NCBI GenBank assembly: GCA_937901445.1
Contig: CALDHY010000041.1
Coordinates: 1-64,000 of the forward strand
DNA from: an uncultured Selenomonadales bacterium
GTDB taxonomy: Bacteria; Bacillota; Negativicutes; Selenomonadales; Selenomonadaceae
Reading direction: 5' to 3'
DNA length: 64,000 nucleotides
In this document: in pieces, positions 1,187 through 62,718 of the stretch
How positions within the stretch are numbered: position 1 is the stretch's first letter
How the letters are laid out: each line of letters begins with the position of its first letter
Program-made: the position numbers and the translations under genes
Notes under the pieces: generated by a model
Told to the model about the DNA's origin: nothing
Seen by the model: only the letters and a program-made list of their open reading frames with translations
Databases searched by the model: none

Positions 1187-1576
1187 TTAAACGTTTGTTA
1201 AGCCGCTTGTAAGTGCGTTTGAACGCCACGCCGAATTTTTATTGTTGACAACGCGGACTGCGCGAACTTGCCCCGCCGTGACGCCGTACGCGGCGATTGA
1301 CGCTGTAATTACTGCGATAATTTCCGGCGATATTCCCTCTTCGATAACCGGTGCGGGTTCAGGATTTTCAGTTTTCAGCCTTGAAATTATTGCTGCAGTT
1401 TCTTTAGCGGTGTCTTCTTCGTCTTCAGTGTCTTTTGATTGAATTTCAGGCTCTTTAGTCGGGTCTATTGCGTGAATCAATTTAATTAAAAAGCTCAACG
1501 AAATTAACACGACAAATACAACCGTCATATTGATACACATAATTATGAGCGGGTTCGTCGTTACAGGTTGTGACAT
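1187..1576 (-). CDS. OadG-family sodium pump decarboxylase subunit (gamma/delta type)
   Basis: This is a small membrane-anchored subunit that tethers the decarboxylase complex: one N-terminal membrane helix (about residues 8-30), an acidic linker, and a C-terminal segment (IIAVITASIAAYG, then RVV..SAWRS) typical of OadG/MmdD proteins. The second of two in-frame ATGs was chosen because AAGGGAG stands 8 bases before it. The stop overlaps the Shine-Dalgarno site of oadB, so the two are translated as a pair. Family assignment is confident; whether it is OadG or MmdD cannot be decided without the partner subunits. Confidence 0.85.
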   Translation of the reverse strand: MSQPVTTNPLIIMCINMTVVFVVLISLSFLIKLIHAIDPTKEPEIQSKDTEDEEDTAKETAAIISRLKTENPEPAPVIEEGISPEIIAVITASIAAYGVTAGQVRAVRVVNNKNSAWRSNALTSGLTNV

Positions 1577-1619
1577 TAAAAAATCTCCCTTCATTTATAA
1601 AAAACTCCATATATTTTAA

Positions 1620-1709
1620 TGACGCCGCGTCAAAAAATAAAATTCTTTATTTGAATAATTCTTATGCTTAAACTTTATTATAAAAATAAATCATTGCGTC
1701 AACCGGTTG
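1620..1709. promoter_or_regulatory. Divergent intergenic region with two short palindromes
   Basis: Between the divergent oadG and UPF0210 genes lie TGACGC-C-GCGTCA (1620-1632) and the perfect palindrome CAACCGGTTG (1700-1709). Both sit where a repressor or activator could act on either promoter. No matching regulator is known to me and the assignment is only positional. Confidence 0.3.
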
Positions 1710-1778
1710 CAGGTGTTAAAATAAAAAACTAAATTTGCTGTGACTAATGATAATCAATTTTATGGGAGAGATAAAATT

Positions 1779-3140
1779 TTGATAACGATTGAAGATATTC
1801 TTGAAACAAACAGAATGATAACCGAAAATAAACTTGACGTGCGGACAATAACAATGGGAATTTCTTTGAGAGACTGCGCGCATCCTAACCTTCACGAATT
1901 TTGCCGCAACGTCTATGATAAAATCACAAAGACTGCTGAATTTTTGGTTAAAACCGGTGAAGATATTGAGGCTGAATACGGCGTACCAATTATCAACAAA
2001 AGAATTTCTGTTACGCCCGTTGCAATAGCCGCCGAAAGTTGCAAAACTGAAAGTTACGTTCCAATAGCCGAAACTTTGGATAAAGCCGCAAAAGAAGTTG
2101 GAGTAAATTTTATTGGCGGCTTTTCTGCACTTGTTGAAAAAGGTTTTACCAACGGCGATAGGATTTTAATTGAGTCAATTCCTCAAGCATTGGCGGTAAC
2201 TGATTTAGTTTGCAGCAGTGTAAATCTTGCGTCAACTAAGGCGGGTATTAATATGGACTGCGTGCGGGAAATGGGCGAAATTATCAAACGTACCGCCGAA
2301 CTTACGCGCGATAAACAGGCTATTGGTTGTGCAAAGTTGGTAATTTTTGCCAATGCGCCGAATGATAATCCTTTTATGGCGGGTGCGTTTCACGGCGTCA
2401 GCGAGGCTGATACTGTCATAAATGTTGGTGTAAGCGGTCCCGGCGTTGTCAAACACGCGCTTGAAGATTTGAAAGGCGCAAACTTTACCGAAATTGCAGA
2501 GGCGATTAAAAAGACTGCGTTTAAAATTACCCGCGTCGGTCAACTTGTAGCAAAAGAGGCGTCGCGCAGGTTAGGCGTACAATTTGGGATTGTCGATTTA
2601 TCTTTAGCTCCTACGCCCGCCGTCGGTGATTCTGTTGCAAGAATTTTGGAAGAAATGGGGCTTGAAAGTTGCGGCGCGCCCGGTACAACTGCCGCGCTTG
2701 CGCTTTTAAATGACGCGGTTAAAAAAGGCGGTTTAATGGCAAGTTCGCACGTCGGCGGATTAAGCGGGGCTTTTATTCCCGTCAGTGAAGATGAAGGAAT
2801 GATCGCCGCCGTAAATGCGGGCAGTCTTTCGATTGAAAAGTTGGAGGCTATGACTTGCGTTTGCAGCGTCGGCTTAGATATGATAGCGGTTGCAGGCGAT
2901 GTAAGCGCGGCTACAATCAGCGGGATAATTGCGGACGAGGCGGCTATTGGCGTTGTCAACAACAAAACTACCGCTGTTAGAATTATCCCCGTTCCCAATG
3001 CTAAAGTTGGGGACGTGGTAGAATACGGCGGCTTGTTAGGTTACTGCCCTATTGTACCGGTTAAAAGTAATTTCAGTTCAGAAGCGTTTATAGCGCGCGG
3101 CGGCAGAATACCCGCGCCTGTACGGAGTTTAACAAATTAA
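1779..3140 (+). CDS. UPF0210 / PFL family protein (DUF711)
   Basis: This is a conserved protein of unknown biochemical function, called PFL-like for distant similarity to pyruvate formate-lyase folds. From a TTG start at 1779 it is 453 residues, the usual family length, and begins with the typical (M)[16 protein letters not shown] lies 8 bases upstream of this TTG; the longer GTG-initiated frame at 1740 has no ribosome site. The family signature [11 protein letters not shown] is present near the N-terminus. Its last 30 or so bases are repeated just before the next gene. An ACT-domain partner (UPF0237), often adjacent in other genomes, is not seen here. Confidence 0.9.
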
Positions 3141-3142
3141 AA
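3111..3142 (+). repeat. 32-bp direct repeat, copy 1 (end of the UPF0210 gene)
   Basis: CCCGCGCCTGTACGGAGTTT and the following AACAAATTAAAA recur exactly at 3207-3238. Copy 1 encodes the last codons and stop of the UPF0210 gene. Confidence 0.95.
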
Positions 3143-3206
3143 ACGCGGCTGTACTGCTAAAATTAAAAAAACTACAACGCGACAACCGGGTCAAGCGTCA
3201 CGCTTG

Positions 3207-3238
3207 CCCGCGCCTGTACGGAGTTTAACAAATTAAAA
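3207..3238 (+). repeat. 32-bp direct repeat, copy 2 (leader of the GNAT gene)
   Basis: This exact second copy of the 3111-3142 sequence ends on the first base of the following ATG. The 64 bases between the copies hold a short hairpin (CAAGCG-TCA-CGCTTG, about 3192-3206). No clear Shine-Dalgarno site precedes the ATG at 3238. Confidence 0.95.
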
Positions 3239-3684
3239 TGTTTAAGATAAGAAAAATCCTGCGCGAGGATACGGCGGCAGTTTTAAAAATGATGCGCACT
3301 TTTTACAATTCGGCGGCAGTATTAACCAACGGCTCTGAAAAAATTTTTGCGGCGAATATTGAAAATTGTTTAGGCGGCTCCAATTTTATTGAAGGCTTTG
3401 TATTTTTGGCAGAAGAAAAAATTATCGGTTACGGTATGCTTGCGAAAGGCTATTCAACGGAATTTGGCGGCGATTGTATTTGGATTGAAGATATTTTCAT
3501 TGAGCCGGAATATCGCGGGCGCGGCTACGGTACGAAATTTATTGAATACGTCAAAGAAATTTACCCCAATAAAATTTTGCGGCTTGAAACTGAACACGAA
3601 AATTTAAAGGCGTTGAATGTTTATAAAAATTTAGGTTTTAAAGAGTTGCCGTATTTAGAATTAGTTTTGGCAGATATGGATTGA
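3238..3684 (+). CDS. GNAT family N-acetyltransferase
   Basis: This 148-residue single-domain acetyl-CoA-dependent acyltransferase has the cofactor loop (EPEYRGRGYGTKF, about residues 98-110) preceded by the IEDIFIEPEY beta strand and followed by an N-KALNVYKNLGF motif at the C-terminal end, all standard for the fold. The substrate is unknown. It overlaps or abuts endonuclease III, suggesting co-transcription. Initiation is unusual: the leader is a copy of the upstream gene's tail and lacks an evident ribosome site. Confidence 0.85.
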   Translation: MFKIRKILREDTAAVLKMMRTFYNSAAVLTNGSEKIFAANIENCLGGSNFIEGFVFLAEEKIIGYGMLAKGYSTEFGGDCIWIEDIFIEPEYRGRGYGTKFIEYVKEIYPNKILRLETEHENLKALNVYKNLGFKELPYLELVLADMD

Positions 3685-3686
3685 CA

Positions 3687-4316
3687 ATGGAAGATTTCAG
3701 ACTTGAAGAATTAAAAATTTTGGAAGAAACATACGCGGGCGCAATTCCCGAATTAAAATTTGATTCAGTATTTGAATTGTTGGTGGCGGTAATTTTGTCG
3801 GCGCAGTGTACAGATAAGCGCGTTAATATCGTAACGGCTGAACTTTTCCCCGTTGCAAACACGCCTGAAAAAATTTTACAGTTGGGACAAACGCGCCTTG
3901 AAGAAATTATCAGACCGTGCGGCTACTTTCGAGCAAAGGCGAAACATATTTTGGCAACAAGTGAAATGCTGATAAAAAATTACGGCGGCGAAGTTCCTGC
4001 AGATTTTGACGAATTAATAAAATTGCCGGGCGTCGGGCGCAAAACTGCAAATGTTGTTACAAGCGTTGCTTTTAAAAATCCGGCTATTGCGGTTGATACG
4101 CACGTTTTCAGAATTGCTAACCGCACAAAATTAGCCGAAGGTACAACTCCGCTTGAAGTTGAACTCGGCTTACAAAAAATTATTCCAAAAGAAAAATGGG
4201 CTGACGCGCACCATTGGTTAATTTGGCACGGGCGGTTAATTTGTTCGTCGCGCAGTCCAAAATGTAAAGATTGCCCGCTGAATAAAATTTGCCCTTATTT
4301 AGGGATTAAGGACTAA
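3687..4316 (+). CDS. nth: Endonuclease III (DNA glycosylase/AP lyase)
   Basis: This base-excision repair enzyme removes oxidised pyrimidines. The helix-hairpin-helix LPGVGRKTA carries the catalytic Lys (about residue 119) and VDTHV the catalytic Asp (about 137). Four cysteines spaced 6, 2 and 5 residues apart near the C-terminus bind the [4Fe-4S] cluster. The 209-residue length is normal. ATG 3687 is preferred; a TTG at 3681 overlapping the GNAT stop is possible. The final residues GIKD and the stop are encoded by the start of a heptad-repeat hairpin element. Confidence 0.96.
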   Translation: MEDFRLEELKILEETYAGAIPELKFDSVFELLVAVILSAQCTDKRVNIVTAELFPVANTPEKILQLGQTRLEEIIRPCGYFRAKAKHILATSEMLIKNYGGEVPADFDELIKLPGVGRKTANVVTSVAFKNPAIAVDTHVFRIANRTKLAEGTTPLEVELGLQKIIPKEKWADAHHWLIWHGRLICSSRSPKCKDCPLNKICPYLGIKD

Positions 4317-4370
4317 GGGTTAAAGGTTAAAGGTTTTCCTTAGTCCTTATCCCCTAACCCTTAGCCCTTA
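4301..4370. repeat. Heptad-repeat hairpin element between nth and a zinc ribbon gene
   Basis: The left arm is built of AAGGRYT-like 7-mers (GGATTAAGGACTAAGGG) and the right arm of their complements (CCTTAGTCCTTATCCCC and CCTTAGCCCTTA), so a long imperfect hairpin can form. It separates two convergent genes and encodes the last residues and stop of both (nth ...GIKD, zinc ribbon ...NKG). It could also act as a bidirectional terminator. Confidence 0.85.
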
Positions 4371-4591
4371 TTGCGTGCATTTTCTTTTTCGGTAACAACA
4401 ACGTAAATAGTATCGTCGTCTTCGTCAAATTCTGCGCCGCAACGCGGGCAACATTCGTATTTTGTACCGTCGGGCAAAGTGCGCTTGCCTGTGCATTTGG
4501 TACAAAATTCAGTACCGCAACGCTTGCAGTGTAAAATTTCGCCAAAATTTGTCCTGCCGCAACGCGGACACGCCGAATAATATTCTGCCAT
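4361..4591 (-). CDS. Small zinc-ribbon protein
   Basis: This 76-residue protein has four CxxC knuckles in order (CPRC, CKRC, CTKC, CPRC), consistent with two treble-clef or ribbon zinc sites, followed by an acidic tail (EFDEDDD) and a short beta-rich end. The start is the ATG at 4591, which has GGAGGGG 6 bases upstream, rather than the ATG 15 bases earlier. Function is not recognised; such proteins are usually nucleic-acid- or protein-binding accessories. Its C-terminal NKG and stop come from the flanking repeat element. Confidence 0.75.
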   Translation of the reverse strand: MAEYYSACPRCGRTNFGEILHCKRCGTEFCTKCTGKRTLPDGTKYECCPRCGAEFDEDDDTIYVVVTEKENARNKG

Positions 4592-4648
4592 AAAAATCCC
4601 CTCCAAAATTTTTTTGAATTATACCACAAACAAGGAAGGTTGAAAAAT

Positions 4649-5107
4649 TTGTTTGAATATAGACATGCCACTTTTGCTGACGTTGAGACAATGTTCACTT
4701 TGATAAATGATTTTGCAACTGAAGGTTTAATGTTGCCAAAAAGTTATTCGACGCTGTATGAAATTTTGCCTGAATTTATAGTTGCTGTCGAAATTGAAAC
4801 GGGCAAAATTGCAGGTTGCGGCGCGTTGCATTGTACATGGGCTGAACTTGCAGAAATTCGCAGTCTAGCCGTCAGCAAAGATTTTCAAAGGCGCGGGATT
4901 GGCGGCGAAATTGTCAAACGCCTGCTTGAAGACGGTAAAAGACTCGGCGTCAAGAAATTTTTTACATTGACTTACAACACGCCCTTTTTTGCAAGCGTCG
5001 GTTTTCAAATTGTAGAGAAAGAAACTTTGCCGCAAAAAATTTGGAGAGAATGCATCGACTGTCCAAAATTTTCTAAATGTGACGAAATTGCAATGATTCT
5101 GCAATAG
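4649..5107 (+). CDS. GNAT acetyltransferase, short ArgA (N-acetylglutamate synthase)-like
   Basis: This acetyltransferase of about 152 residues has the acetyl-CoA loop FQRRGIGGEIV and the preceding LAEIRSLAV strand. The C-terminal block (IWRECIDCPKFSKCDEIAM) resembles short-form ArgA enzymes that make N-acetylglutamate for arginine synthesis; this is a motif-based inference. TTG 4649 is chosen because AGGAAGG stands 9 bases before it; the TTG at 4640 directly abuts that site. No other arg gene is nearby, so the substrate remains uncertain. Confidence 0.8.
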   Translation: MFEYRHATFADVETMFTLINDFATEGLMLPKSYSTLYEILPEFIVAVEIETGKIAGCGALHCTWAELAEIRSLAVSKDFQRRGIGGEIVKRLLEDGKRLGVKKFFTLTYNTPFFASVGFQIVEKETLPQKIWRECIDCPKFSKCDEIAMILQ

Positions 5108-5110
5108 AAA

Positions 5111-5142
5111 AATCCCCGTCAATTTTCCGGCGGGGATATTTT
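5111..5142. terminator. Bidirectional terminator between convergent genes
   Basis: ATCCCCG and CGGGGAT pair around a 12-base loop, with A-rich sequence before and T7 after, serving the GNAT gene on the plus strand and the TPR gene on the minus strand. Confidence 0.85.
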
Positions 5143-5143
5143 T

Positions 5144-6346
5144 TTAATCTATGTAACCTAATTCTCTTGCCTTTGCAAAATCTGCATTGGCTTTTTCATT
5201 TTCGCCCAACGCTTGATAACATTTCGCTCTGTTTGAATATGCATATTTATCATTCGGATTCAGTTGAATGTATTTTGTAAAATCTGCGACAGCTTTTTGA
5301 TAATCGTTCAAATTATTTTTGTAAATAAGCCCGCGGTTATAGTATGCATTTGCATTATTCGGATTTAACTCAATAGCACGGTTGTAGTCAGAAATAGCTT
5401 GCTCGTACTGTTTTAAATAATTGTAAGCAACGCCGCGGTTGTTGTATGCATATGCATCATTCGGATTAATTTCAATAGCGCGGTTGTAGTCAGAAATAGC
5501 TTGCTCGTACTGTTTTAAATGACGGTAAGCAACGCCGCGGTTGTTGTATGCATTTGCAAAATTCGGATTGAGTTCAACAGCTCGAGTAAAGTCAGAAATT
5601 GCCGCCTCGTACTGTTGCAAATCAGCGTAAGCATTGCCACGCCCATAATATCCTCGATAATCATGGGGCTTTAATGATACAGCTTCATTGAATAATTCTA
5701 ATGCTTTACTAAAATTTTTATTGTTCCAAAAATCTACACCTTCATTAAATTTTTGAATATACAGCGCGTCTTTGTCAATTTCGCTCATTTCCTGTTGAAT
5801 GTTTTGTTTATCCTGCGCAGTTTGGATATTTGCCAATTTTTCTTCCAATTCTTTAATACGGCGTGCTTGTTCCTCAATCAGTTTTTGTTGTGAGTTGTTT
5901 TGCTCCACTAAATTTGATTTTTCGTTGCTGTCACGGCTCCGCCATTCTTTCAGCGCAGTTTCAAAATCTGCAGAATCAACTTGCGCCTCCACAGTTACAA
6001 CGACTTTGATATAACCTGCCGCGTTGCCTGTCAAGGGAACCATTTCAACTTTTACGACGCTGATATTTTTCAGCAAGCCCGCCGCAAATGTTATAACTTC
6101 GTCTTTTTGCAGTTGAAAATTTTCCATAACACTTTCAGAACTGATAAAAATTCCGGCTTGTTCAATGGCGGCGCGTTCGGCATAAAGTTTGGCGTTTTGC
6201 TGGGCAAATTCCGGCGTTTCCTTCATACTCATAATATATTCGCCTGTGCCGGTAACAATTTTTATTTCGGCTTGTACCGGCGAAACTGTCAGCAAATTTA
6301 TAAAAACTGCCGCAACCAAAATTTTTAGAAAAAACTTTTCAAGCAT
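5144..6346 (-). CDS. Exported TPR-repeat protein with LPP20/FlgT-like N-domain
   Basis: The 400-residue protein has a signal peptide (about residues 1-27, ending VQA), a globular domain (about 28-135, with AERAAIEQAG as in LPP20-type domains), a coiled coil (about 140-180, rich in Q/E/K) and six tetratricopeptide repeats to the C-terminus. It is likely a periplasmic or envelope scaffold. ATG 6346 follows GGGGGTG; the GTG nine bases earlier overlaps this site. TPRs 3 and 4 are almost identical in DNA, a recent internal duplication. The partner is unknown. It is terminated by the shared hairpin at 5111-5142. Confidence 0.85.
   Translation of the reverse strand: MLEKFFLKILVAAVFINLLTVSPVQAEIKIVTGTGEYIMSMKETPEFAQQNAKLYAERAAIEQAGIFISSESVMENFQLQKDEVITFAAGLLKNISVVKVEMVPLTGNAAGYIKVVVTVEAQVDSADFETALKEWRSRDSNEKSNLVEQNNSQQKLIEEQARRIKELEEKLANIQTAQDKQNIQQEMSEIDKDALYIQKFNEGVDFWNNKNFSKALELFNEAVSLKPHDYRGYYGRGNAYADLQQYEAAISDFTRAVELNPNFANAYNNRGVAYRHLKQYEQAISDYNRAIEINPNDAYAYNNRGVAYNYLKQYEQAISDYNRAIELNPNNANAYYNRGLIYKNNLNDYQKAVADFTKYIQLNPNDKYAYSNRAKCYQALGENEKANADFAKARELGYID
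5370..5553 (-). repeat. 102-bp-period internal repeat in the TPR gene
   Basis: About 82 bases at 5370-5451 recur with only a few differences at 5472-5553 (for example GCGGTTGTAGTCAGAAATAG in both or with one change). One unit equals one 34-residue TPR, so array length can change by whole repeats. Confidence 0.9.
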
Positions 6347-6380
6347 AAATATCACCCCCGCAAAAGTTTTTCAACGCCGT

Positions 6381-6436
6381 AAATATTTTTCCTGCAACAA
6401 AAAAAACTCCGAGCAATTCAGCCGGAGCTTAATTTT
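6381..6436. repeat. Duplicated terminator-leader block, copy 1
   Basis: The block AAATATTTTTCCTGCAACA through GCCGGAGC and the T-rich end matches 6935-6988 with few differences. The copies flank the brnTA pair exactly. Copy 1 separates brnA from the TPR gene and contains the brnA terminator. Confidence 0.9.
6399..6428 (-). terminator. Terminator of brnTA
   Basis: On the minus strand CTCCG and CGGAG pair around an 11-base loop and run into T8. It is the same hairpin as the one that ends the sucrose hydrolase gene. Confidence 0.75.
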
Positions 6437-6622
6437 TCAGCTTGCAACTTTTTCAGCTTTTTTTCGGCGAAGGCGCGCAGGTTTAAATTTTTTCAATTCT
6501 TCCTTTGAAATTGGCGGAATATCGCTAAAATCAATTTCGTTATCCGGAAGTTGCCGAATTGCCTTTATTCTGTTAAATTGTTCTTCACTGACCTGCACTC
6601 CATTAATAATAAAATTGCTCAT
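6437..6622 (-). CDS. brnA: BrnA-like antitoxin
   Basis: This 61-residue partner lies directly after and overlaps the BrnT toxin by 20 bases, the usual brnT-brnA order. The segment IDFSDIPPISKEELKKFKPAR resembles the linker and C-terminal part of BrnA antitoxins and would neutralise the toxin. It is shorter than many BrnA proteins, and I cannot clearly see a full ribbon-helix-helix DNA-binding domain, so autoregulation is uncertain. GAGGTG inside the brnT end serves as its ribosome site. Confidence 0.72.
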   Translation of the reverse strand: MSNFIINGVQVSEEQFNRIKAIRQLPDNEIDFSDIPPISKEELKKFKPARLRRKKAEKVAS

Positions 6623-6905
6623 AATATTTATTCACCTCATCTTTAGTAGCAGTTCGCGCTGAAATAATTCTGTTTACATCGCCGCGTTCAGTATAAATTA
6701 CCGTCAAAATTTTATCAACTCTGCCGATAATTTTTATTCTGTCTTCGTTGTCACTGTGAATTTCATCATAATCATCAATTAAATTTTCATCAAAAAATAC
6801 CAACGCTGCATCTTCAAAATGAATTTTATGTTTCTTGTAATTTATTTCGGCTTTTTCGGAATCCCAAACAAATTTGTATTCGCCAAGTTCAAAATTTATA
6901 TCCAA
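6603..6905 (-). CDS. brnT: BrnT ribonuclease toxin (type II toxin-antitoxin)
   Basis: This RelE-like-fold ribonuclease toxin shows the family hallmarks in order: FVWDSEKAEINYKKHKI, FEDAALVFFD, the HSDNEDR motif, the central YTERG strand and the RIISARTAT signature near the end. TTG 6905 was chosen because AGGTGA precedes it by 5 bases; GTG 6914 lacks a site. The pair is inserted between sucrose hydrolase and the TPR gene and bounded by duplicated terminator blocks, which suggests acquisition as a cassette. Confidence 0.9.
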   Translation of the reverse strand: MDINFELGEYKFVWDSEKAEINYKKHKIHFEDAALVFFDENLIDDYDEIHSDNEDRIKIIGRVDKILTVIYTERGDVNRIISARTATKDEVNKYYEQFYY

Positions 6906-6921
6906 ATTAATCACCTAATTT

Positions 6922-6949
6922 ATTTTAACATAAAAATATTTTCCTGCAA
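6922..6949 (-). promoter_or_regulatory. Putative sigma-70-type promoter of brnTA
   Basis: TTGCAG, 16 bases, then TAAAAT on the minus strand, shortly before the brnT start. The -35 hexamer lies inside the duplicated block. Confidence 0.45.
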
Positions 6950-6988
6950 CAAAAAAACTCCGACCAATTCAGCCGGAGTTTTATTTTT
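6935..6988. repeat. Duplicated terminator-leader block, copy 2
   Basis: This is the near-identical partner of 6381-6436, located between the sucrose hydrolase stop and brnT. On the minus strand it carries the hydrolase terminator followed by the brnT -35 element. Confidence 0.9.
6950..6981 (-). terminator. Terminator of sucrose-6-phosphate hydrolase gene
   Basis: AACTCCG and CGGAGTT pair around an 11-base loop and continue into T7 on the minus strand, 24 bases after the stop. Confidence 0.85.
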
Positions 6989-7004
6989 TATTGTGGAAAA
7001 AATA

Positions 7005-8459
7005 TTAGTCAACGACGGGTTGAGGAATACCGACGCCCAATTCATAAAATTTGAGGCTGTCAATTTTGAACGCGCCGTCTTTCGGTACAAAAATAATATC
7101 AGTGGAATCTGCGCGAGGGTAAATTCTGGAAGTCATAACTTTTTCGCCGTCATTAATAAAAATTTCAACCAATGAGCGGTCAAGGAAAATTTGAAGTTTC
7201 ATTTTATCTGCGGCAACAACGGGGCATTCACGTTCGCCATCGCCGCCCGCGCCCGCTTCATCACGATTAAATTTGAAAAGCTCCAACGCCTTATTGTATG
7301 AAAGGACGGTTTTTTGAGTCTTATCTTTGGAGGCGCGCAGGTAAATTTCAAATTCTGCAGTTTCGGTTAAATCAATGTCCAAAATTAATTCGCCGCAATC
7401 GCCGCTTACGCCGTCAAATTTCATCGGCTTGTAGAAAGTCAAATTTTCGTAGGATTTTTCTGCAGTGCGGAGGTTTTCCAATTCTTTAATAGGCGTGGTA
7501 AAAACTTTGCCGTTTTTGACGTGAATTTCACGCGGTACGGACATCATACCTGCCCAGCCGTCTTCTTGTTCCGGCATTATGTTATACCACATATCAGCCC
7601 AGCCAATCATAAGCGTGCGCCCGTCGGGAGCTTCCGTAATTTGCGGCGCGTAAAAATCAAAGCCGTAATCCAAAAGTTCAAATTTGCCGTGAATATAAAC
7701 GCCCTTATCATAATCGACTTTGCCCATAAAGTAGCCGGATTGAAAAACGTTCATATATTTGTTGAGTTCACGCTTGATACCTTGCGGCGAAATAATTAAA
7801 ATATCATGCCCTTCAATATTGGCAAAGTTGGGGCATTCCCACATAAAGCCTTCATTGCCTTCAGCACGCGCCATAATGTTTACGAACTCCCATTTGATTA
7901 AGTCTTCAGATTCAAAAAGTACAATTTGCCCCGTCAATCTGTCAGGCGTGCGTGAACCGACAACCATATAGTATTTGTCGTTTTCTTCATTCTTTAAAAC
8001 TTTTGGATCTCTGAAATCACCGACGTGAATTTGTTCATCTTCAGGAGCTACGGCAACGGGATTTTCGGGATATTTGGCAAAGTGTACGCCGTCTTCACTT
8101 ATTGCGATATTTTGAGTTTGTCTGAATCCTTCCGGAATTTCCGGCGTGTCTCTGTGTCCGGTGTAGACAAGATAAAGTTTGCCGTCTTTTTCAATCGCAC
8201 TGCCGCTGAAACAACCGTTACGGTCATAATCTTCCGTCGGAGCAAGTGCAACAGGTAAATGGTTCCAATGTATTAAATCGTCGCTTACAACGTGTCCCCA
8301 GTGCATTGGTCCCCACTGCGCGGTATGCGGATGATACTGATAAAATAAATGGTATTCGCCTTTATAGTAGCAAAAACCGTTAGGGTCGTTAATCCAGCCG
8401 CCGGGCGCGGCAATATGATATTTCGGATAATATCTTGTATTTATAATTCTTAAAGCCAT
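7005..8459 (-). CDS. scrB: Sucrose-6-phosphate hydrolase / beta-fructofuranosidase (GH32)
   Basis: This cytoplasmic glycoside hydrolase splits sucrose-6-phosphate (or sucrose) into glucose-6-P and fructose. WINDPNGF (about residues 22-29) holds the nucleophile Asp25, RDPK the transition-state stabiliser, and WECP the acid/base Glu, with the C-terminal beta-sandwich module completing a normal 484-residue length. There is no signal peptide. ATG 8459 follows GGGAGATGATTC; the upstream ATG at 8474 does not fit the ribosome site. No sucrose PTS, fructokinase or LacI-type regulator is adjacent, so the uptake route is not visible here. Confidence 0.92.
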   Translation of the reverse strand: MALRIINTRYYPKYHIAAPGGWINDPNGFCYYKGEYHLFYQYHPHTAQWGPMHWGHVVSDDLIHWNHLPVALAPTEDYDRNGCFSGSAIEKDGKLYLVYTGHRDTPEIPEGFRQTQNIAISEDGVHFAKYPENPVAVAPEDEQIHVGDFRDPKVLKNEENDKYYMVVGSRTPDRLTGQIVLFESEDLIKWEFVNIMARAEGNEGFMWECPNFANIEGHDILIISPQGIKRELNKYMNVFQSGYFMGKVDYDKGVYIHGKFELLDYGFDFYAPQITEAPDGRTLMIGWADMWYNIMPEQEDGWAGMMSVPREIHVKNGKVFTTPIKELENLRTAEKSYENLTFYKPMKFDGVSGDCGELILDIDLTETAEFEIYLRASKDKTQKTVLSYNKALELFKFNRDEAGAGGDGERECPVVAADKMKLQIFLDRSLVEIFINDGEKVMTSRIYPRADSTDIIFVPKDGAFKIDSLKFYELGVGIPQPVVD

Positions 8460-8565
8460 TGAATCATCTCCCAATTTTTTTTACAAAAGCTTATTCGACG
8501 CCCTTTCAGTTATTCCTTTAACTCAAATTTTTTATTGATGCCATTTTCTATAAAAATCAAAAACC

Positions 8566-8594
8566 TTGACATTTTGTCGAAAAGGAATTATGAT
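8566..8594 (+). promoter_or_regulatory. groESL promoter
   Basis: A consensus TTGACA, 17-base spacer and TATGAT lie 55 bases before groES. I do not see a CIRCE inverted repeat (TTAGCACTC-N9-GAGTGCTAA) or a clear CtsR heptad between here and the start codon. Confidence 0.85.
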
Positions 8595-8648
8595 ATAGCA
8601 GTTTTCAGTTGATAGGCTGAATGTAAACCATTTGGGAGGCAAGATACT

Positions 8649-8930
8649 ATGATTAAACCACTCGGAGACAGAGTTGTAATTGAAGTCGCTGAAGTCGAAC
8701 TCAAGACTAAAAGCGGTATCATAATGCCGGAGACTTCAAAAGAAAAACCGCAAAAAGGTAAAGTTATTGCGGTTGGTACGGGTAAACTTCTCGATAACGG
8801 CACTCGCGCAGTTCCTGAAGTTGAAGTCGGGCAAGACGTACTTTTTAACAAATACGCGGGCAGCGAAGTCAAAGTGGACGATAAAGAATATTTGGTAATT
8901 CGTGAAAGCGATATTTTGGCAATTCTTTAA
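8649..8930 (+). CDS. groES: Co-chaperonin GroES
   Basis: This 93-residue ring cap of the GroEL chamber begins with [11 protein letters not shown], carries the mobile loop around [15 protein letters not shown] that contacts GroEL, and ends with [24 protein letters not shown], all canonical. GGGAGG lies upstream of the ATG. It is followed by groEL with a 99-base gap filled by a heptad-repeat hairpin, which could tune the groES:groEL transcript ratio. Confidence 0.98.
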
Positions 8931-10646
<1,716 letters not shown>

Positions 10647-10647
10647 T

Positions 10648-10692
10648 TTAGGGGTTAGGTTTTAGTGGTTAGTTGTTAGGACTAACGACTGA
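10648..10692. repeat. Degenerate heptad-repeat remnant after groEL
   Basis: A run of GGGGTTAGGTTTTAGTGGTT and GTTAGGACTAACGACT resembles a decayed copy of the heptad element. The rest of the intergenic stretch to 10885 holds the groEL terminator and a TAGGTATAATT motif (10791-10801) shared with the lpxB leader repeats. Confidence 0.5.
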
Positions 10693-10720
10693 AAAATTTA
10701 ATTCTTGTACAAAAAAAATT

Positions 10721-10752
10721 AACACCTCGATAAATTGTCGGGGTGTTTTTTA
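10721..10752 (+). terminator. groESL terminator
   Basis: AACACC-TCGA pairs with TCG-GGGTGTT and is followed by T6. Confidence 0.85.
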
Positions 10753-10885
10753 GTGGCAATTTAGCCGCTTTTAAATCGAAATTTAAGTTTTAGGTATAAT
10801 TCCTGTCAAACGCTTGAAACGCGGCTTACAGACCCCTTCAGGCGCGTGTACAGGCTTGTTTGAAAGTTTGCAAGGAGAAATTTTC

Positions 10886-11077
10886 TTGAAAATATTTTAT
10901 GACGAAAAAATTTGCGTACGTTGCGCCGCCTGCGCGATTGAATCGGAAAACGGCGGAATAAAATTTGAACGCGATAAAATTATTATCGACGAAACTAAAA
11001 TTGAAGATTGGCACGCAATAGCGGCAATTTGTCCAGTCGGCGCGTTGACTTTAAAAAATATTACCTCAAGCGTTTAA
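10886..11077 (+). CDS. Small single-cluster ferredoxin
   Basis: This 63-residue electron carrier has CVRCAAC (three cysteines spaced CxxCxxC) near the N-terminus and a distant ICPVGAL supplying the fourth ligand, fitting one [4Fe-4S] cluster with the second cluster lost. The TTG start at 10886 is supported by AAGGAG 9 bases upstream; upstream in-frame codons lack a site. Its 3' end overlaps the convergent XRE regulator by 17 bases. The redox partner is unknown. Confidence 0.8.
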   Translation: MKIFYDEKICVRCAACAIESENGGIKFERDKIIIDETKIEDWHAIAAICPVGALTLKNITSSV

Positions 11078-11444
11078 CTTTTCGTTTTGCGCGTAAACCT
11101 ACCGAAAAAATTTCTATAAATTGTCCGGCTAAATTTAATTGTTCGGGCGGCAGTCCTTCAAGATTCGTAACAATTTTTGCTATTGGCGCAGACTTTATTA
11201 ACGGTGCAACTTTTACGTTTACATTATCCGTACCCAATAAAATAAAATCTGTCGTAACGTCAAGAGCCTTTGCAATGTTTATGATGGTGCTTGAAGTCAT
11301 ACTTTTTTTGCCCGTTTCAATTTCAAACAAAAAGTGCGGCGAAATTTCAGCCTCCTCCGACAATTTATCACGGGTTTTGCCTTGAGCCTCACGGAGCAAC
11401 CTGATTCTGTTGCCTATGGCTATATTTAAATCTTTTTTGTCCAT
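11061..11444 (-). CDS. XRE-family helix-turn-helix regulator
   Basis: This 127-residue cytoplasmic DNA-binding protein has an HTH_3 domain at about residues 10-66 (IRLLREAQGKTRDKLSEEAE, then HFLFEIETGKK). The C-terminal 55 residues carry no recognisable sensor domain. It lies divergent from the small-gene run at 11635-12484 and could regulate it; that is a positional inference. It overlaps the end of the ferredoxin gene on the opposite strand. Confidence 0.88.
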   Translation of the reverse strand: MDKKDLNIAIGNRIRLLREAQGKTRDKLSEEAEISPHFLFEIETGKKSMTSSTIINIAKALDVTTDFILLGTDNVNVKVAPLIKSAPIAKIVTNLEGLPPEQLNLAGQFIEIFSVGLRAKRKVKRLR

Positions 11445-11634
11445 TCAAGCACGCCCTTTATTTTTTAATAATAAATTAGTGCTGAAAATTTTCGTACAAT
11501 CTATAGATAAAATTTATCCTTGAAATTTTATATCTATAGCTATAAAATGTTTGACGTAAGAAGTGAACTGTTCACCTTGACTTTGGATAAAAAATTTTTT
11601 TGAAATGTGTAGTGTTTTTGGAGGTTGATATTTT

Positions 11635-11820
11635 ATGGAAAACATCGAAAAGAAAAAGGTTGTTCCCGTGAAAATCCCTGAAGGAGAATTTGCCGGATAT
11701 GTTTGTTGCGCAGACTGCAGATTCGGCGAATACGATTCCAAGCGCGAGGAAGTTTGGTTCGGTTACCGTCGCAGATGGATGGATCCAACGGATAACTGCT
11801 CTCATGGAGAGTTCAAATAA
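11635..11820 (+). CDS. Small Cys-rich protein of unknown function
   Basis: This 61-residue protein has VCCADCRFGEYDS, an aromatic/basic stretch WFGYRRRWMDP and a terminal C-SHGE. The cysteines and histidine could bind a metal. GGAGG precedes the ATG by 9 bases, so it is probably a real gene. It is the first of three tightly spaced small genes (only one base to the next), suggesting an operon with the membrane protein and the JAMM protease. I do not recognise the family. Confidence 0.7.
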   Translation: MENIEKKKVVPVKIPEGEFAGYVCCADCRFGEYDSKREEVWFGYRRRWMDPTDNCSHGEFK

Positions 11821-11821
11821 A

Positions 11822-12112
11822 ATGAGCGAAAATCAAAATCGCCAGTATGTTGTAACACGTTCGCCCAAAAGTGTTGGACTCGGCTTGATTCTAACTTTGG
11901 TACTTGGTCCAATCGGTCTTTTTTATGCAACGATAACCGGAGGTGTTATCATGGCTGTTGTAGATACGATATTTGCAATAGCCGGCTTTATGACACTTGG
12001 AATCAGCCTTTTCATTACAGTTCCGCTTGTAAATCTTATTTGTATGGTATGGGCTTACAAAGCAATCACAAAGTACAATGAAGATTTATTCAACGGCAAC
12101 TTGAATGTGTAG
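11822..12112 (+). CDS. Small two-helix membrane protein
   Basis: This 96-residue protein has two hydrophobic segments (about residues 17-37 and 45-75) joined by a tight turn, reminiscent of TM2-type hairpins, and a polar C-terminus. ATG 11822 is preceded by GGAGAG inside the end of the upstream gene; the longer frame starting at 11690 overlaps that gene and is rejected. It lies three bases before the JAMM gene. Function is unknown. Confidence 0.75.
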   Translation: MSENQNRQYVVTRSPKSVGLGLILTLVLGPIGLFYATITGGVIMAVVDTIFAIAGFMTLGISLFITVPLVNLICMVWAYKAITKYNEDLFNGNLNV

Positions 12113-12115
12113 GAA

Positions 12116-12484
12116 ATGAAAATCCGAATCAGCGATACAGTAATTAATGCAATTAAAGAAAATTTATGTCTTCCTGAAAAGGGCGGTATTCTCGGTGTTG
12201 ATGAAAATTTTGTCGTAACGAAATTTTACAATGATTCAACCGGAATTACTACAAAATCGCGGTACATACCTGACATAAAGAAATTAAACGCCGTAATTCA
12301 AAATTGGGCACTTGAAGGCGTTTCATTTATTGGATTTGTTCATACTCATCCTAAAGGCTCGGAAAAACTCTCATCACTTGACATTGAGTACGCGGAAAAA
12401 ATTAAAACGCAGTGTAATTTAACCGAAATTCTCATGTTGTTGTACATTCCGGCAGAAGAAAAATTTTTACAATACCTGATTTGA
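12116..12484 (+). CDS. JAB/JAMM-domain metalloprotease-like protein
   Basis: This 122-residue stand-alone Mov34/MPN fold has the catalytic signature: an upstream Glu (PEKGGILG), then HTHP, and S-x-x-D in LSSLDIEYAE at the spacing expected for zinc binding. Bacterial members remove C-terminal tails from ubiquitin-like or sulfur-carrier proteins, or process tails in defence modules; no such carrier is visible here. It is the third gene of a compact run starting at 11635 and is followed by a strong terminator. Confidence 0.85.
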   Translation: MKIRISDTVINAIKENLCLPEKGGILGVDENFVVTKFYNDSTGITTKSRYIPDIKKLNAVIQNWALEGVSFIGFVHTHPKGSEKLSSLDIEYAEKIKTQCNLTEILMLLYIPAEEKFLQYLI

Positions 12485-12488
12485 CTTT

Positions 12489-51515: not shown

Positions 51516-51540
51516 TTTTCAAAAACTTGGAGGAATAAAA

Positions 51541-51927
51541 ATGAATCAGAAAGGCTTCGCAACGCTTGAAATTATTTTGATGGTTATGGTAATTGGAATT
51601 TTGGCAACAATGGCAGTCCCGCAATTTGAAAAAATGACTGCCGCCGCCAATACTTCAAAAGTGCAATCAGATTTAGCGGCGATTAACACGGCATTTGCAG
51701 TGTATCAAATGACGCAAACAAACACCGTTACAAATTTAGATATAAACACGCTAGCTGATTATTTTGAAAATGGCATACCGCAAAAACCTACCGGCAAAAT
51801 TTATGTAACAACCACAGGAACAACAACTCCTGCCCTTACTGATATAAATTCTGAATGGAATTATGCCATTACGAGCGGAAAGGCAACCTTTGGCGGTTAT
51901 ACAGCTGATAAATTCACAATGAAATAA
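51541..51927 (+). CDS. Type IV pilin-like (pseudopilin) protein
   Basis: This 128-residue protein has a class III leader: MNQKG followed by FATLEIILMVMVIGILATMAV, with cleavage expected after Gly5, Glu at +5 and a long N-terminal helix. The C-terminal part is small and Thr-rich. It would be exported by a type IV pilus or type II secretion machinery, which is not in this window. GGAGG precedes the ATG. It is a single gene with its own promoter and terminator. Confidence 0.88.
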   Translation: MNQKGFATLEIILMVMVIGILATMAVPQFEKMTAAANTSKVQSDLAAINTAFAVYQMTQTNTVTNLDINTLADYFENGIPQKPTGKIYVTTTGTTTPALTDINSEWNYAITSGKATFGGYTADKFTMK

Positions 51928-51944
51928 ATTGAATACAAAAAATT

Positions 51945-51980
51945 TTGCGATTGAGTAAAAAACTTAGTCGCAATTTTTTT
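51945..51980 (+). terminator. Terminator of the pilin-like gene
   Basis: TTGCGATTGAGT pairs with ACTTAGTCGCAA (a few wobbles) around an A-rich loop, followed by T7. Confidence 0.85.
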
Positions 51981-51989
51981 ATGCAGTTA

Positions 51990-52018
51990 TCGACGTAAAA
52001 AAAGATTAATGTTATAAT
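51990..52018 (+). promoter_or_regulatory. Promoter of the lipid A operon
   Basis: TCGACG, 17 bases, TATAAT with TGT in front (extended -10), about 30 bases before the lpxC start. Confidence 0.7.
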
Positions 52019-52049
52019 GACTGAAATTTTTTTGAAAGGGGAAAGAATT

Positions 52050-52880
52050 TTGCCAAAACAAAAAACCTTGAAAAGTTCAATCGCCGTAACGGGCAAAGGC
52101 TTACATTCCGGCGTTGACGTGCAACTGGAATTAAAACCGGCTGAAGTTGACAGCGGAATTTTTTTTGTGCGTACAGATTTAGCGGCAAGAAATAAAATCT
52201 GCGCGACGCCTGAAAATGTAACTTCGACGTTGCGGGCAACAACGCTTGAAGAAAACGGCGTCAAAGTTTTTACGGTTGAACATTTGATGAGCGCGCTTGC
52301 GGCTTGCGGAATTGACAACTGCGCGGTTGAAATGAACGCCGAAGAACCGCCGGTACTTGAGGGAAATTCTATTGGCTTTTTTGAAATGATAAAGTCCGCC
52401 GGTACGATTGAACAAGCCGCCGAACGCAAAATTATTCAGCTTGAAAAAGTTTATCGCGCAGATTCTGATGACGGCAAAAAATTTATAATCGCCCTGCCTT
52501 ATGACGGCTTCAGAATAAGTTTCACTTCGATAAATCCGCACCCGCTGATTGGTATTCAGTACGCAGATTTTGAAATAACTGAAGAAATTTATAAAACCGA
52601 AATTGCGCCTGCACGTACAATCGCTTATGAAAAGGAAGTTGAGGCGTTGCACGCGGCAGGATTGGGGCGCGGCGGCAATTTGGATAACGTGATTGTTTAC
52701 AACGACGAAGGCTGGCTTAACAAATTAAAATATCCGAATGAACTTGTACGCCATAAAATTTTGGACGTTATAGGCGATTTGCGGCTGATAGGTTTTTTGA
52801 AATGTCATATAATCGCAGTTGCGTCGGGACACGCCCTTAACGCTAAACTTGCCAAAAAAATTTCTGCAGATTTTAATTAA
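52050..52880 (+). CDS. lpxC: UDP-3-O-acyl-N-acetylglucosamine deacetylase
   Basis: This is the committed, zinc-dependent step of lipid A synthesis. Zinc ligands are His78 in VEHLMSAL and the HKILDVIGD His/Asp pair; catalytic His is in SGHALN near the end. It is 276 residues from TTG 52050, which has AAAGGGGA 7 bases upstream; the ORF extending to 52017 overlaps the promoter. First gene of a six-gene envelope operon and not fused to fabZ, which follows after 16 bases. Confidence 0.97.
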   Translation: MPKQKTLKSSIAVTGKGLHSGVDVQLELKPAEVDSGIFFVRTDLAARNKICATPENVTSTLRATTLEENGVKVFTVEHLMSALAACGIDNCAVEMNAEEPPVLEGNSIGFFEMIKSAGTIEQAAERKIIQLEKVYRADSDDGKKFIIALPYDGFRISFTSINPHPLIGIQYADFEITEEIYKTEIAPARTIAYEKEVEALHAAGLGRGGNLDNVIVYNDEGWLNKLKYPNELVRHKILDVIGDLRLIGFLKCHIIAVASGHALNAKLAKKISADFN

Positions 52881-53394: not shown

Positions 53395-54198
53395 ATGATA
53401 AATTCGGAAAATAACATTCATGAAACGGCGGTTATTTCAAGCAGTGCAAAAATCGGGCAAAACGTTACAATCGGACCATACACGGTTATTGGCGACGAAG
53501 TGGAAATTGGCGACGGCTCGAATATTGGACCAAACGCCGTTATCGCAAGTTATACAACGATTGGTAAAGACTGCAGAATTTTTCAATTTGCATCTGTTGG
53601 CGAAATACCGCAAGATTTAAAATTCAAGGGCGAAAAAACTTATACATACATTGGCGATAGGACGGTTATTCGTGAAGGCGCAACCATTCACAGAGCAACC
53701 GGCGAAGGCAACGAAACGCGCGTTGGTACAGATTGCCTTTTAATGGCGTACATTCACATTGCACATAACTGCACGCTCGGCAACCACGTTATCATGTCAA
53801 ATTTGGCAAGCTGCGCCGGTCATGCAACCGTTGAAGATAGAGTTGTTATTGGCGGAATGGCGGGCGTTCATCAATTCGTAAAAATTGGACGAAATGCAAT
53901 GGTCGGTGGTATGAGCAAACTTGTTCAAGACGTTGTACCTTATACCATTGTTGACGGGCACCCTGCAAAAGTTGTCGGCTTAAATAACGTTGGAATTTCT
54001 CGCGCAGGTATTCCACTTGAGTCGCGCAGATTGATTAAAAAAGCTTACAAAATTTTATATCGTTCGGGCTTGAGTTTGGCTGAAGCTATTGCAGTGATTG
54101 AACAGGAAGTTGATTCTTGTGAGGAAGTCGAACACTTTTTAAGATTTTTAAGAAATGCTGAACGCGGTATTTGCAGGGAACGCCGCGACGTTGAGTAG
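53395..54198 (+). CDS. lpxA: UDP-N-acetylglucosamine acyltransferase
   Basis: This first lipid A enzyme is a left-handed beta-helix built of hexapeptide repeats (IGQNVTIGPYTVIGDEVEIGDGSNIGP and so on, about residues 15-190), with the catalytic His in AYIHIAHNC and a C-terminal helical domain. 267 residues. The RBS is GGGAGCTGGG. It precedes lpxI. Confidence 0.97.
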   Translation: MINSENNIHETAVISSSAKIGQNVTIGPYTVIGDEVEIGDGSNIGPNAVIASYTTIGKDCRIFQFASVGEIPQDLKFKGEKTYTYIGDRTVIREGATIHRATGEGNETRVGTDCLLMAYIHIAHNCTLGNHVIMSNLASCAGHATVEDRVVIGGMAGVHQFVKIGRNAMVGGMSKLVQDVVPYTIVDGHPAKVVGLNNVGISRAGIPLESRRLIKKAYKILYRSGLSLAEAIAVIEQEVDSCEEVEHFLRFLRNAERGICRERRDVE

Positions 54199-60827: not shown

Positions 60828-61558
60828 TATTCGTCAGCAAATTCATAATTGCCGTAAACGTTTTGAACATCGTCATCTTCGTCCAGCGCGTCAAGCAGTT
60901 TTTGCATTTTTTCAGTATCTTTATCAGAAAGTTTAACGGTTGTATCGGGAACTTGCGTAATTTCGGCGGAGGCGGTTTCAATTCCCTTTTCAGCCAAAAC
61001 TTTTTCTACTGCGTCAAAATCTTCAGGCGCAGCTGTAATTTCAAAGGATTCATCGTCCGCTTCCATATCTTCCGCGCCGGCTTCCATAACAATTTCCATT
61101 AAAGTATCTTCATCGTCAAAAGTTTCTTTATCGACAACGAACACAGCTTTTTTCTTGAACATCCAACCAACGCAGCCTGTTTCGCCCAAATTGCCGCCGT
61201 GCTTGCTGAAAATATGACGAATTGACGCCGCCGTACGGTTGCGATTGTCTGTCAAAATATCCAGCATTAAAGCAGAACCGCCCGGTCCGTAGCCTTCATA
61301 GGTAATTTCTTCATAGTTGGAATTGTCTGAAGAGCCGAGCCCCTTTTGAATTGCGCGGTTGATATTGTCTTTTGTAATGTTATTGGCGCGCGCCTTTGAA
61401 AGAGCGAGTTTTAAGCGCATGTTGCCTGTCGGATCTGCGCCGCCCATTTTTACGGCGATTGTAATTTCACGACTGATTTTTGTAGTCATTGCGCCGCGTA
61501 TTGCGTCATTTGCGCCTTTCTTGCGTTTAATATTTGCCCATTTTGAATGTCCTGACAT
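60827..61558 (-). CDS. yebC: YebC/PmpR family protein (TACO1-like)
   Basis: This 243-residue cytoplasmic protein has MSGHSKWANIKRKKGANDA, TYEGYGPGGSALMLDILTDN and HGGNLGETGCVGWMF, typical of the family. Members bind DNA as regulators or help ribosomes through proline-rich stretches; which role applies here is unknown. It starts the yebC-ruvC-ruvA run; GGAGAG precedes the ATG. Confidence 0.96.
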   Translation of the reverse strand: MSGHSKWANIKRKKGANDAIRGAMTTKISREITIAVKMGGADPTGNMRLKLALSKARANNITKDNINRAIQKGLGSSDNSNYEEITYEGYGPGGSALMLDILTDNRNRTAASIRHIFSKHGGNLGETGCVGWMFKKKAVFVVDKETFDDEDTLMEIVMEAGAEDMEADDESFEITAAPEDFDAVEKVLAEKGIETASAEITQVPDTTVKLSDKDTEKMQKLLDALDEDDDVQNVYGNYEFADE

Positions 61559-61623
61559 ATTAACTCTCCTTTAAAATTATTTTTTTTGAAAACCGGATAA
61601 CCTGCTCCGGCTAGCGTTTTCTC

Positions 61624-62244
61624 CTAATAACCGGCTGACATTTTTTTGGTAGGTCTATTATTAATCTTAAATTGCATTGATAACTTGCTGTAGTCTTCCG
61701 GATTGAAATTAACATTTTCAAAAGAAATATTCAGCGCGTCGAAATTTACAGCTGTATCGCTTTTTATGACGGCGACGGCGTTACCAATTCCAATATATTT
61801 TTTGTTTTTGACTTTGAGCGGGATTCTGAAATTGTTGTTGCACAAATAAATTTCGTCAACGCCTTCATCGAGTAAATCGCCCAAATCTTCCTGATTAAAA
61901 GCAACGCTGTCAACTTTCGCCAAAATATTTGTATCGTTGGTAAAAGTTTTTAACTTTGCAAGGCGTTCATTTCGCCACGCAATAATTTCAGGGTCTTCAG
62001 ATTTTTGAACGCCGAAAATTTTGTACAGCTTATTTTCTAAATCCGGATCATTTCTAGACAAGGCGGCTACTTTTTCGGCTTCATCTTCATAGTAACGCTC
62101 GCGCAGAAATTTTATCAAGCTGCCGTCAAAGGCATAATCTGCCAACGCCGCAACATTAAAATTTTGGCGCAAACTTTCAATATCTCTTACCTCAACGTCA
62201 TTCAGAAAAAGCGGCGTTTTAGGTTTTCGAGTTAATATAGGCAC
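61624..62244 (-). CDS. Unknown protein with LRxNF...F-x-DGSLxxxLRERYY motif
   Basis: This 206-residue soluble protein has a helical N-terminal half with FDGSLIKFLRERYYEDEAEKVAAL, a pattern I know from many uncharacterised Firmicute proteins, and a beta-rich C-terminal half (DEIYLCNNNFRIPLKV, IGIGNAVAVIKSD). GTG 62244 follows GAGGTGA. It stands after the GNAT gene. Function is unknown. Confidence 0.78.
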   Translation of the reverse strand: MPILTRKPKTPLFLNDVEVRDIESLRQNFNVAALADYAFDGSLIKFLRERYYEDEAEKVAALSRNDPDLENKLYKIFGVQKSEDPEIIAWRNERLAKLKTFTNDTNILAKVDSVAFNQEDLGDLLDEGVDEIYLCNNNFRIPLKVKNKKYIGIGNAVAVIKSDTAVNFDALNISFENVNFNPEDYSKLSMQFKINNRPTKKMSAGY

Positions 62245-62253
62245 AGTATCACC

Positions 62254-62718
62254 TCACAGAATTTTTTTCATATAAATCACGTCGTCCATAGGATTATCAT
62301 AATACGGCGGAATTTCAACGAATCCAAATTTTTTGTACAAATGAATCGCACTTTGCAAAGGTTTAATCGTGTCCAAAACAATTTCCTTGTAACCGTCATT
62401 TTTTGCGGCGTCAAGAATTTTTTCAACAAGTAAAACGCCTGCGCGAAGGTGGCGGAAATTTTCCTTGACGAAAAGTCTTTTCATTTCGCAACGTTCGGAA
62501 TTGTGGCGATGGTAAGCAACGCAACCTATAATTTCGCCGGTGTCAATTTGCGCACAAAGTAAACGCCCTTCCGGCGGCAAATATTTTTCTGCAAGGTCTG
62601 CAAGTTCAGAATCTAAATTTTGAAAAGATAAATCCCGCCCCAAAAATTTTGTGTACTCAATGATTAAATTTTTAACTTCGGCAAGATATTTTGTGCCGTC
62701 AACAATTTTAATTTCCAT
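62254..62718 (-). CDS. GNAT family N-acetyltransferase
   Basis: This 154-residue acetyltransferase has [21 protein letters not shown] (beta 4 region), the acetyl-CoA loop [14 protein letters not shown] (a degenerate RxxGxG/A: R-H-L-R-A-G), and [10 protein letters not shown] near the end. The substrate is unknown. Its ATG overlaps the tyrS end by 11 bases, so it is translated from the same message. Confidence 0.88.

Follow-up and report, generated by a model that had tools for sequence, protein, structure and literature searches.

A predicted DNA uptake sequence and its one-letter dialect in Selenomonadaceae of the phylum Bacillota

Sequence-biased DNA uptake has so far been reported for two families, the Pasteurellaceae and the Neisseriaceae, both of which are Proteobacteria (excerpts of PMC7811141). 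In the Pasteurellaceae, the uptake signal sequence (USS; Hin AAGTGCGGT, Apl ACAAGCGGT) joins a G+C-rich core of 8-10 bp to a downstream A/T tract, as in the extended forms AAAGTGCGGTCAATTTT and AACAAGCGGTCAAATTT, and the minor pilin PpdA/ComN is its predicted receptor (excerpts of PMC12616744). Among the Neisseriaceae, S. muelleri holds two dialects of the DNA uptake sequence (DUS) in one genome (excerpts of PMC3630211). The present analysis concerns the octamer TCGCGCAG in a 64,000-bp stretch of DNA (hereafter the window; 40.9% G+C), contig CALDHY010000041.1 of an uncultured bacterium of the Selenomonadaceae. Judged from its sequence and distribution, TCGCGCAG is probably the DNA uptake sequence of a naturally competent, diderm lineage of this family, for which we infer preferential uptake. 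The features that point to this are its density, its A/T flank, its dialects, the strand symmetry of the dialect found in the window, the scarcity of close pairs, its placement at tolerant protein positions, its maintenance in trans and the competence-type pilus of its hosts.

The word resembles the USS in architecture, in a frequency of the order of one per kb, in its occurrence on both strands and in having dialects that run along the phylogeny. It differs in that its sequence is unrelated, its host belongs to the Bacillota (Negativicutes), its uptake role is predicted and its candidate reader is a FimT/FimU/GspH-like pilin instead of PpdA/ComN. Like the DUS, which is read by the minor pilin ComP, it runs to thousands of copies, has dialects that follow the core-genome tree and has a minor pilin as its (here candidate) reader. 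The DUS is 10-12 bp long, longer than the present 8-mer, and the candidate receptor of the latter resembles FimU/GspH.

An exact count finds 80 copies of the heptamer CGCGCAG in the window, 45 forward and 35 reverse. The original prediction had estimated about 43 and 35 by eye and had described the heptamer as mostly preceded by T and followed by G or A; T precedes it in 61 of the 80 copies, and the next base is G or A in 63 (33 and 30). The T-preceded form is TCGCGCAG, with 36 copies on the plus and 25 on the minus strand, and G directly follows TCGCGCA at all 61 of its occurrences. The extent first proposed for the word, 1258..62450, matches the first and last of these copies. The positions are as follows, with each start followed by its strand:

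1258..62446, both strands: all 61 exact copies of TCGCGCAG (exact count; 8 bp each), starting at 1258- 2562+ 3259- 4248+ 7109- 8804+ 9310+ 10232+ 10930- 13908+ 14202- 15955+ 17040- 17148+ 17553- 17826+ 18599- 18625- 18960+ 19758+ 19817- 20836+ 22008+ 25366+ 28011+ 29730- 29851+ 30442+ 30804- 32239+ 32747+ 34723+ 34968+ 35500+ 36335- 36940- 37893+ 37978- 39193+ 39887+ 42155+ 43692+ 43874- 45579- 46328- 46912- 48133+ 48217+ 49644+ 51259- 52199- 52454+ 54000+ 54022+ 54793+ 56034- 57167+ 57723- 59856- 62099+ 62439-
1258..1265, minus strand: first copy of TCGCGCAG
2562..2569, plus strand: copy of TCGCGCAG followed by GTTA
54000..54029, plus strand: a close pair of TCGCGCAG, a rare arrangement, 22 bp apart and both within the open reading frame (ORF) 53395-54198
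62439..62446, minus strand: last copy of TCGCGCAG
1874..52326, both strands: 19 copies of CGCGCAG without the leading T, 8-bp starts at 1874- 6473+ 7333+ 8316- 9979- 14827- 18887+ 19710+ 22199- 29990- 32498- 37997- 42786+ 43797+ 43974+ 45087+ 47443+ 50347- 52319-

The 19 copies that lack the T probably lie mostly outside the system, since their number is close to the Markov expectation for the whole heptamer (13.6).

Under an order-3 Markov model, the 61 copies of TCGCGCAG in the window compare with an expectation of 2.2 (27.6x), and the 80 copies of CGCGCAG with one of 13.6 (5.9x). When synonymous codons were shuffled among all ORFs taken as genes, so that proteins and codon use were preserved, 3.1 copies of TCGCGCAG (standard deviation 1.7) were obtained instead of 61. 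The coding copies are spread over three sense (6, 11 and 17) and three antisense frames (14, 5 and 8), and all six classes are enriched. The same shuffle applied to four related genomes gave 113 copies against 6.4 in G098, 116 against 8.4 in G099, 110 against 8.1 in G101 and 292 against 20.4 in G089. In the 844 kb formed by pooling these four with the window, TCGCGCAG is the most over-represented 8-mer (730 copies against 39.3), its 24 single-base variants together number 796 where 905.6 are expected, and the highest single variant reaches 1.72x; in the window, CGCGCAG outnumbers each of the nine single-base variants that were counted by a factor of about 3 to 14. Because codon shuffles fall far below the counts and all six frames are enriched, the enrichment is one of selection or drive on DNA rather than on codons. 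The original claims of strong over-representation on both strands and of an excess that codon preference is insufficient to explain thus hold against both null models, and the comparison with single-base variants that accompanied them points the same way.

One alternative is a compositional or codon-pair bias with no selection on the word. Many other 7-8-mers in this group also exceed their synonymous-codon shuffles (z of about 7 to 19), so the shuffle alone is no proof. Enrichment in six frames means, however, that codon-pair use in a single frame is not the explanation, the single-base variants taken together are not enriched, a neighboring dialect (described below) stays near its control in the genomes that carry TCGCGCAG, and conservation at sites of the word is two to three times that at permuted words. 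A purely compositional origin is accordingly very improbable.

By threonyl-tRNA synthetase, the closest of 17 genomes searched is G072, at 95% identity. Named relatives in the species collection are chiefly rumen and gut Selenomonadaceae assemblies, with Selenomonadaceae RGIG7806 (88%) and also Quinella sp. 2Q5 (85%) among them. Among 189 genomes of the family, TCGCGCAG reaches 1242 to 2335 copies in exactly seven (G072, G089, G087, G093, G098, G099 and G101), or 6.2 to 12.3 per 10 kb with genome sizes taken to 0.1 Mb, where the reversed word used as a control has 165 to 431 copies. The look at related genomes suggested in the original prediction therefore finds the word abundant in a defined set. 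Together with the window, these seven form the T clade (ultrafast bootstrap 100) in a tree built from three proteins of syntenic loci, some of which are absent in some genomes. The next densest genome, G009, has 3.8 copies per 10 kb, 1.9 times its own control.

A one-letter dialect, CCGCGCAG (the C dialect, as opposed to the T dialect TCGCGCAG), occurs at 4 or more copies per 10 kb in 24 of the 189 genomes, for example with 2007 copies in G095, 2103 in G110, 1926 in G085 and 1508 in G001. It is the top 8-mer in 20-kb samples from three of five C genomes, the other two being G067, where it comes second, and G121, where it comes third. The seven T genomes hold it near control level (123 to 375 against 158 to 290), and TCGCGCAG in C genomes is lower and sometimes above control (356 against 501 in G110, 306 against 227 in G095, 382 against 166 in G001). 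Both dialects are abundant in G100 (772 T, 1244 C) and G071 (625 T, 1058 C), which may be two-dialect genomes like that of S. muelleri or, possibly, mixed assemblies. Samples of G111, G113, Schwartzia (L004), S. montiformis (L010) and L015 contain at most two copies each of either word, and a search for a third dialect in sequence samples of the motif-poor G111, G113, G002, G094, G107 and G092 found no word as prominent as TCGCGCAG. The top 8-mer against codon shuffling in G113 (L189, L237 and L266), a genome without YCGCGCAG, is TCCGCGCG, with 47 copies against 9.5; this is possibly another dialect or plain composition.

With G113 as the root of the tree, the T dialect is nested within a paraphyletic C dialect, so a single change from C to T is the simplest history. 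The dialects therefore track phylogeny, as those of an uptake sequence should. They also share a layout. Across 729 copies in the five T sets (the window, G098, G099, G101 and G089), the base after TCGCGCAG is A or G in 79% and the tenth base A or T in 75%, and bases 11-13 are T-rich (43-48%), which gives the extended consensus TCGCGCAG-R-W-T-T-T; a faint A/T enrichment reaches about 12 bp on either side. The extended C-dialect form in G001 is CCGCGCAG-A-T-T (182 copies). This is the arrangement of the Pasteurellaceae, in which a G+C-rich core is followed by a downstream A/T tract.

To follow the history of individual sites, ten genes of the window were codon-aligned with their counterparts in up to 21 relatives, taken as best hits over more than 60% of the query; most C genomes contributed only two or three genes. 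Within the T clade, TCGCGCAG is retained at 334 of 551 aligned positions (61%), compared with 836 of 2896 for permuted 8-mers, and between two T subclades at 57 of 93, compared with 45 of 204. Within the C genomes, CCGCGCAG is retained at 126 of 271 positions and permuted words at 796 of 2974. No such excess crosses the dialects: T sites carry an identical TCGCGCAG in C genomes at 58 of 494 positions (permuted words 297 of 2326). The two C clades, though they use the same word, have none of their sites in common either (0 of 46 and 0 of 36, where permuted words give 53 of 872). A switch of dialect by point mutation at shared sites was considered and rejected, as C-dialect sites read TCGCGCAG in T genomes in just 6 of 237 cases and the 58 of 494 for T sites do not exceed the permuted words. 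The switch therefore came with site turnover. Conservation within a dialect, and not across dialects or between C clades, thus suggests that the word is maintained by something acting in trans while single sites are gained and lost.

These alignments further indicate that TCGCGCAG occupies positions where the protein tolerates change. From T to C genomes, amino-acid identity is 0.51 at motif codons, whereas the remaining codons of these genes reach 0.70 and permuted words 0.74; from C to T it is 0.49 at motif codons compared with 0.70, and within T it is 0.85 compared with 0.84. The USS also sits in tolerant codons, and Findlay and Redfield in 2009 reportedly found the Haemophilus uptake word at change-tolerant protein positions.

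Strand and density bear on a second alternative, a Chi-like site, in which an AddAB or RecBCD-type enzyme would read TCGCGCAG on one strand and pass from degradation to recombination, so that the words would be kept for repair. The length of the octamer, its G+C-rich sequence and its genome-wide enrichment fit this, and site conservation would fit as well; the Chi of Lactococcus, GCGCGTG, is likewise G+C rich. Chi words are normally biased to the leading strand. With the locally G-rich strand in 20-kb bins as a proxy for the leading strand, the five T sets have 364 copies on that strand and 364 on the other (window 34/25, G098 65/55, G099 66/55, G101 55/61, G089 144/168). Copy orientation over 480 kb of G089 is uncorrelated with GC skew or gene strand, and the split of 144 against 168 gives p 0.19, although GC skew there follows gene strand (rho 0.93). 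G101, with five bins, shows a negative orientation trend (rho -0.87, p 0.054). The C genome G001 lends the Chi alternative some support, as its copy orientation correlates over 12 bins with GC skew (rho 0.78, p 0.003; 99 against 83) and with gene strand (rho 0.77, p 0.004; 105 against 77), and G003 resembles it without reaching significance (rho 0.69, p 0.058; 36 against 31). Even in G001 the strand excess is small, one copy per 0.8 to 1.6 kb is high for a Chi 8-mer, and an A/T flank and one-letter dialects would be unusual. A Chi role is unlikely, and it is strand symmetry, not biochemistry, that sets it aside. The original prediction had offered an uptake sequence or a Chi-like signal and had proposed strand bias as a check. 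The first half is strengthened by density, dialects, flank, tolerant codons, symmetry in the T dialect and the pilus and pilin of relatives; the second is disfavored by the even split, with an argument left incomplete by the small bias of G001. Copies thus lie equally in both orientations in the T dialect, and the C dialect (G001) is not as clean.

Close pairs are scarce: 25 gaps of less than 100 bp occur in G089 contig 2, G098, G099 and G101, compared with about 55 under random placement. The DUS often forms inverted pairs at terminators, and TCGCGCAG differs from it in this rarity. In the window (coefficient of variation 0.77, largest gap 3.4 kb), G099 (0.86) and G101 (0.89), copies are spaced more evenly than at random, which is not so in G089 (0.98) or G098 (1.00). 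Density is higher in coding than in intergenic DNA in all five T sets. Across 360 kb of G089, the longest stretch free of the word measures 10.9 kb and covers rpoB-rpoC.

A third alternative is that TCGCGCAG is kept by a process unrelated to DNA uptake, perhaps related to methylation or structure, and is a word of the same kind as HIP1 of cyanobacteria, likewise an octamer that is scattered through genes and lacks an agreed function. The same group is also enriched in another word at the DNA level: the palindrome AAAATTTT has 208 sites in 182 kb of G003 (L093-L100 and L002; 56% G+C), with 180 in genes compared with 24.6 after synonymous-codon shuffling, in all three frames, and it is also enriched in G110. 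HIP1, however, is palindromic and TCGCGCAG is not, and a HIP1-type word leaves no place for a dialect change that coincides with a change in the tail of a DNA-binding-type pilin. This origin is improbable.

The machinery expected for uptake is present in relatives, with ComEC in 183 and DprA in 176 of the 189 genomes and the pilus motor gene T2SSF (PilC family) in all 22 relatives searched. Being near-universal in the family, ComEC and DprA say little as discriminators. A two-row FimT alignment performed better in pilin searches than Pfam N_methyl, which matched 3 of 20 whole genomes, probably because the profile is short. The FimT alignment matched 46 genomes, of which the 30 with a retrieved locus were aligned; eight of 20 retrieved pilus loci were viewed. 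The candidate receptor has a prepilin N-terminus and a GspH/FimU fold, the latter assigned by a second structure aligner, compatible with other families and made among structures that did not include FimT itself; Foldseek placed unrelated proteins on top, with no E below 0.001. Legionella FimT is a type IV minor pilin whose closest structural homologue is FimU, which binds DNA partly through a flexible C-terminal tail with GRxR, and which bound DNA whatever probe was used (Braus et al., 2022; excerpts of PMC8897410). The candidate is likewise a type IV minor pilin with a C-terminal GRxR, found after a DSVG-like stretch in 26 of 30 pilins (7/7 T, 12/15 C, 7/8 other). All seven T-dialect pilins extend this to GRxRGxY, and the tyrosine occurs in 0 of 15 C and 0 of 8 other pilins; unlike in Legionella FimT, this dialect-specific RGxY tail is proposed to add sequence preference. 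GRxRGxY is also present in 32 of 35 database homologs, a count taken without regard to genome dialect. P0001 (NCBI label Selenomonadaceae bacterium) is identical to the FimT-like pilin of G072.

An uptake role could be played out as follows, where preferential uptake, the pilin as reader, and drive are the steps that we infer. Extracellular double-stranded DNA that bears the motif would be bound better than other DNA by a competence-type IV pilus with a FimT-like minor pilin on the cell surface. The pilus would then retract, and the DNA would be handed to ComEC, DprA and recombination. Tagged incoming DNA would recombine more often, so that the word would build up by molecular drive on either strand at sites where the protein can tolerate it. 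A single shift of receptor preference, from CCGCGCAG to TCGCGCAG, would have taken place in the T-clade ancestor. A bolder and more tentative proposal is that this could be the first self-DNA uptake system outside the Proteobacteria, in which a change in the GRxR tail, the gain of RGxY, turned a general DNA-binding pilin into a sequence reader and so caused the C-to-T switch.

Besides the orientation bias of G001, several observations weigh against an uptake sequence read by this pilin. The motif-free G111 and G113 have ComEC, DprA, PilC and the FimT-like pilin as well, so the machinery is no predictor of the word. None of it was found within the window, where two signature scans found no prepilin N-terminus, although one could still be present; the pilin-like gene of the original prediction is thus left unconfirmed. 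DprA was not found in G101, which may be an incomplete assembly, and the C-dialect genomes G114 and G117 gave no match to the FimT-like pilin. Four of the 30 pilins, including that of C-dialect G001, lack GRxR. Since the T dialect is a single clade in which each trait arose on one branch, the match between RGxY tail and dialect is one evolutionary event and no proof of cause. Finally, the decayed prophage L310 (G099 contig 41; fragmented terminase, portal) carries the word at host density, 14 copies against 14.6. Phage DNA taken together holds less of it: eight terminase-bearing stretches, this prophage included, have 44 copies against 85.2 at host density, of which the four with full-length portal or head genes have 15 against 51.9 and the other three 15 against 18.6. 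This pattern, a mixed result in a weak test, fits resident DNA that acquires the word slowly.

Apart from the octamer, degenerate heptad arrays (TTAAGGA, CTAAGGG) occur in the window, mostly in intergenic DNA, at 4303-4375, 8935-8998, 15383-15450, 23042-23080, 60278-60330 and 63941-64000. In most places inverted copies (TCCTTAA) follow, which makes them hairpin-capable and perhaps terminators. Arrays of a different heptad (AGTGGTC, AGTGAAA) are found in G001 (L083-L092).

Within the Negativicutes, Veillonella parvula uses a competence locus like a type IV pilus or type II secretion system for transformation. It is not known to have an uptake sequence: the authors of that study found no word of at least 10 bp with at least 100 copies, leaving words of up to 9 bp open (excerpts of PMC5397411). 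In searches of open-licence PMC papers, no uptake sequence was met for the Negativicutes, Selenomonadaceae, Selenomonas or Quinella, in agreement with the original remark that no such motif is described for Negativicutes. To our knowledge, TCGCGCAG would be the first DNA uptake sequence outside the Proteobacteria. If true, it would be an independent case in another phylum, implying that the trait evolves repeatedly, and it would supply a third dialect set for testing drive against selection, along with a small receptor in which specificity may be switched by the tail. Tagging donor DNA with the word would be a practical handle for these bacteria, for which we know of few genetic tools. It would also suggest that gut Selenomonadaceae trade genes mainly with their relatives.

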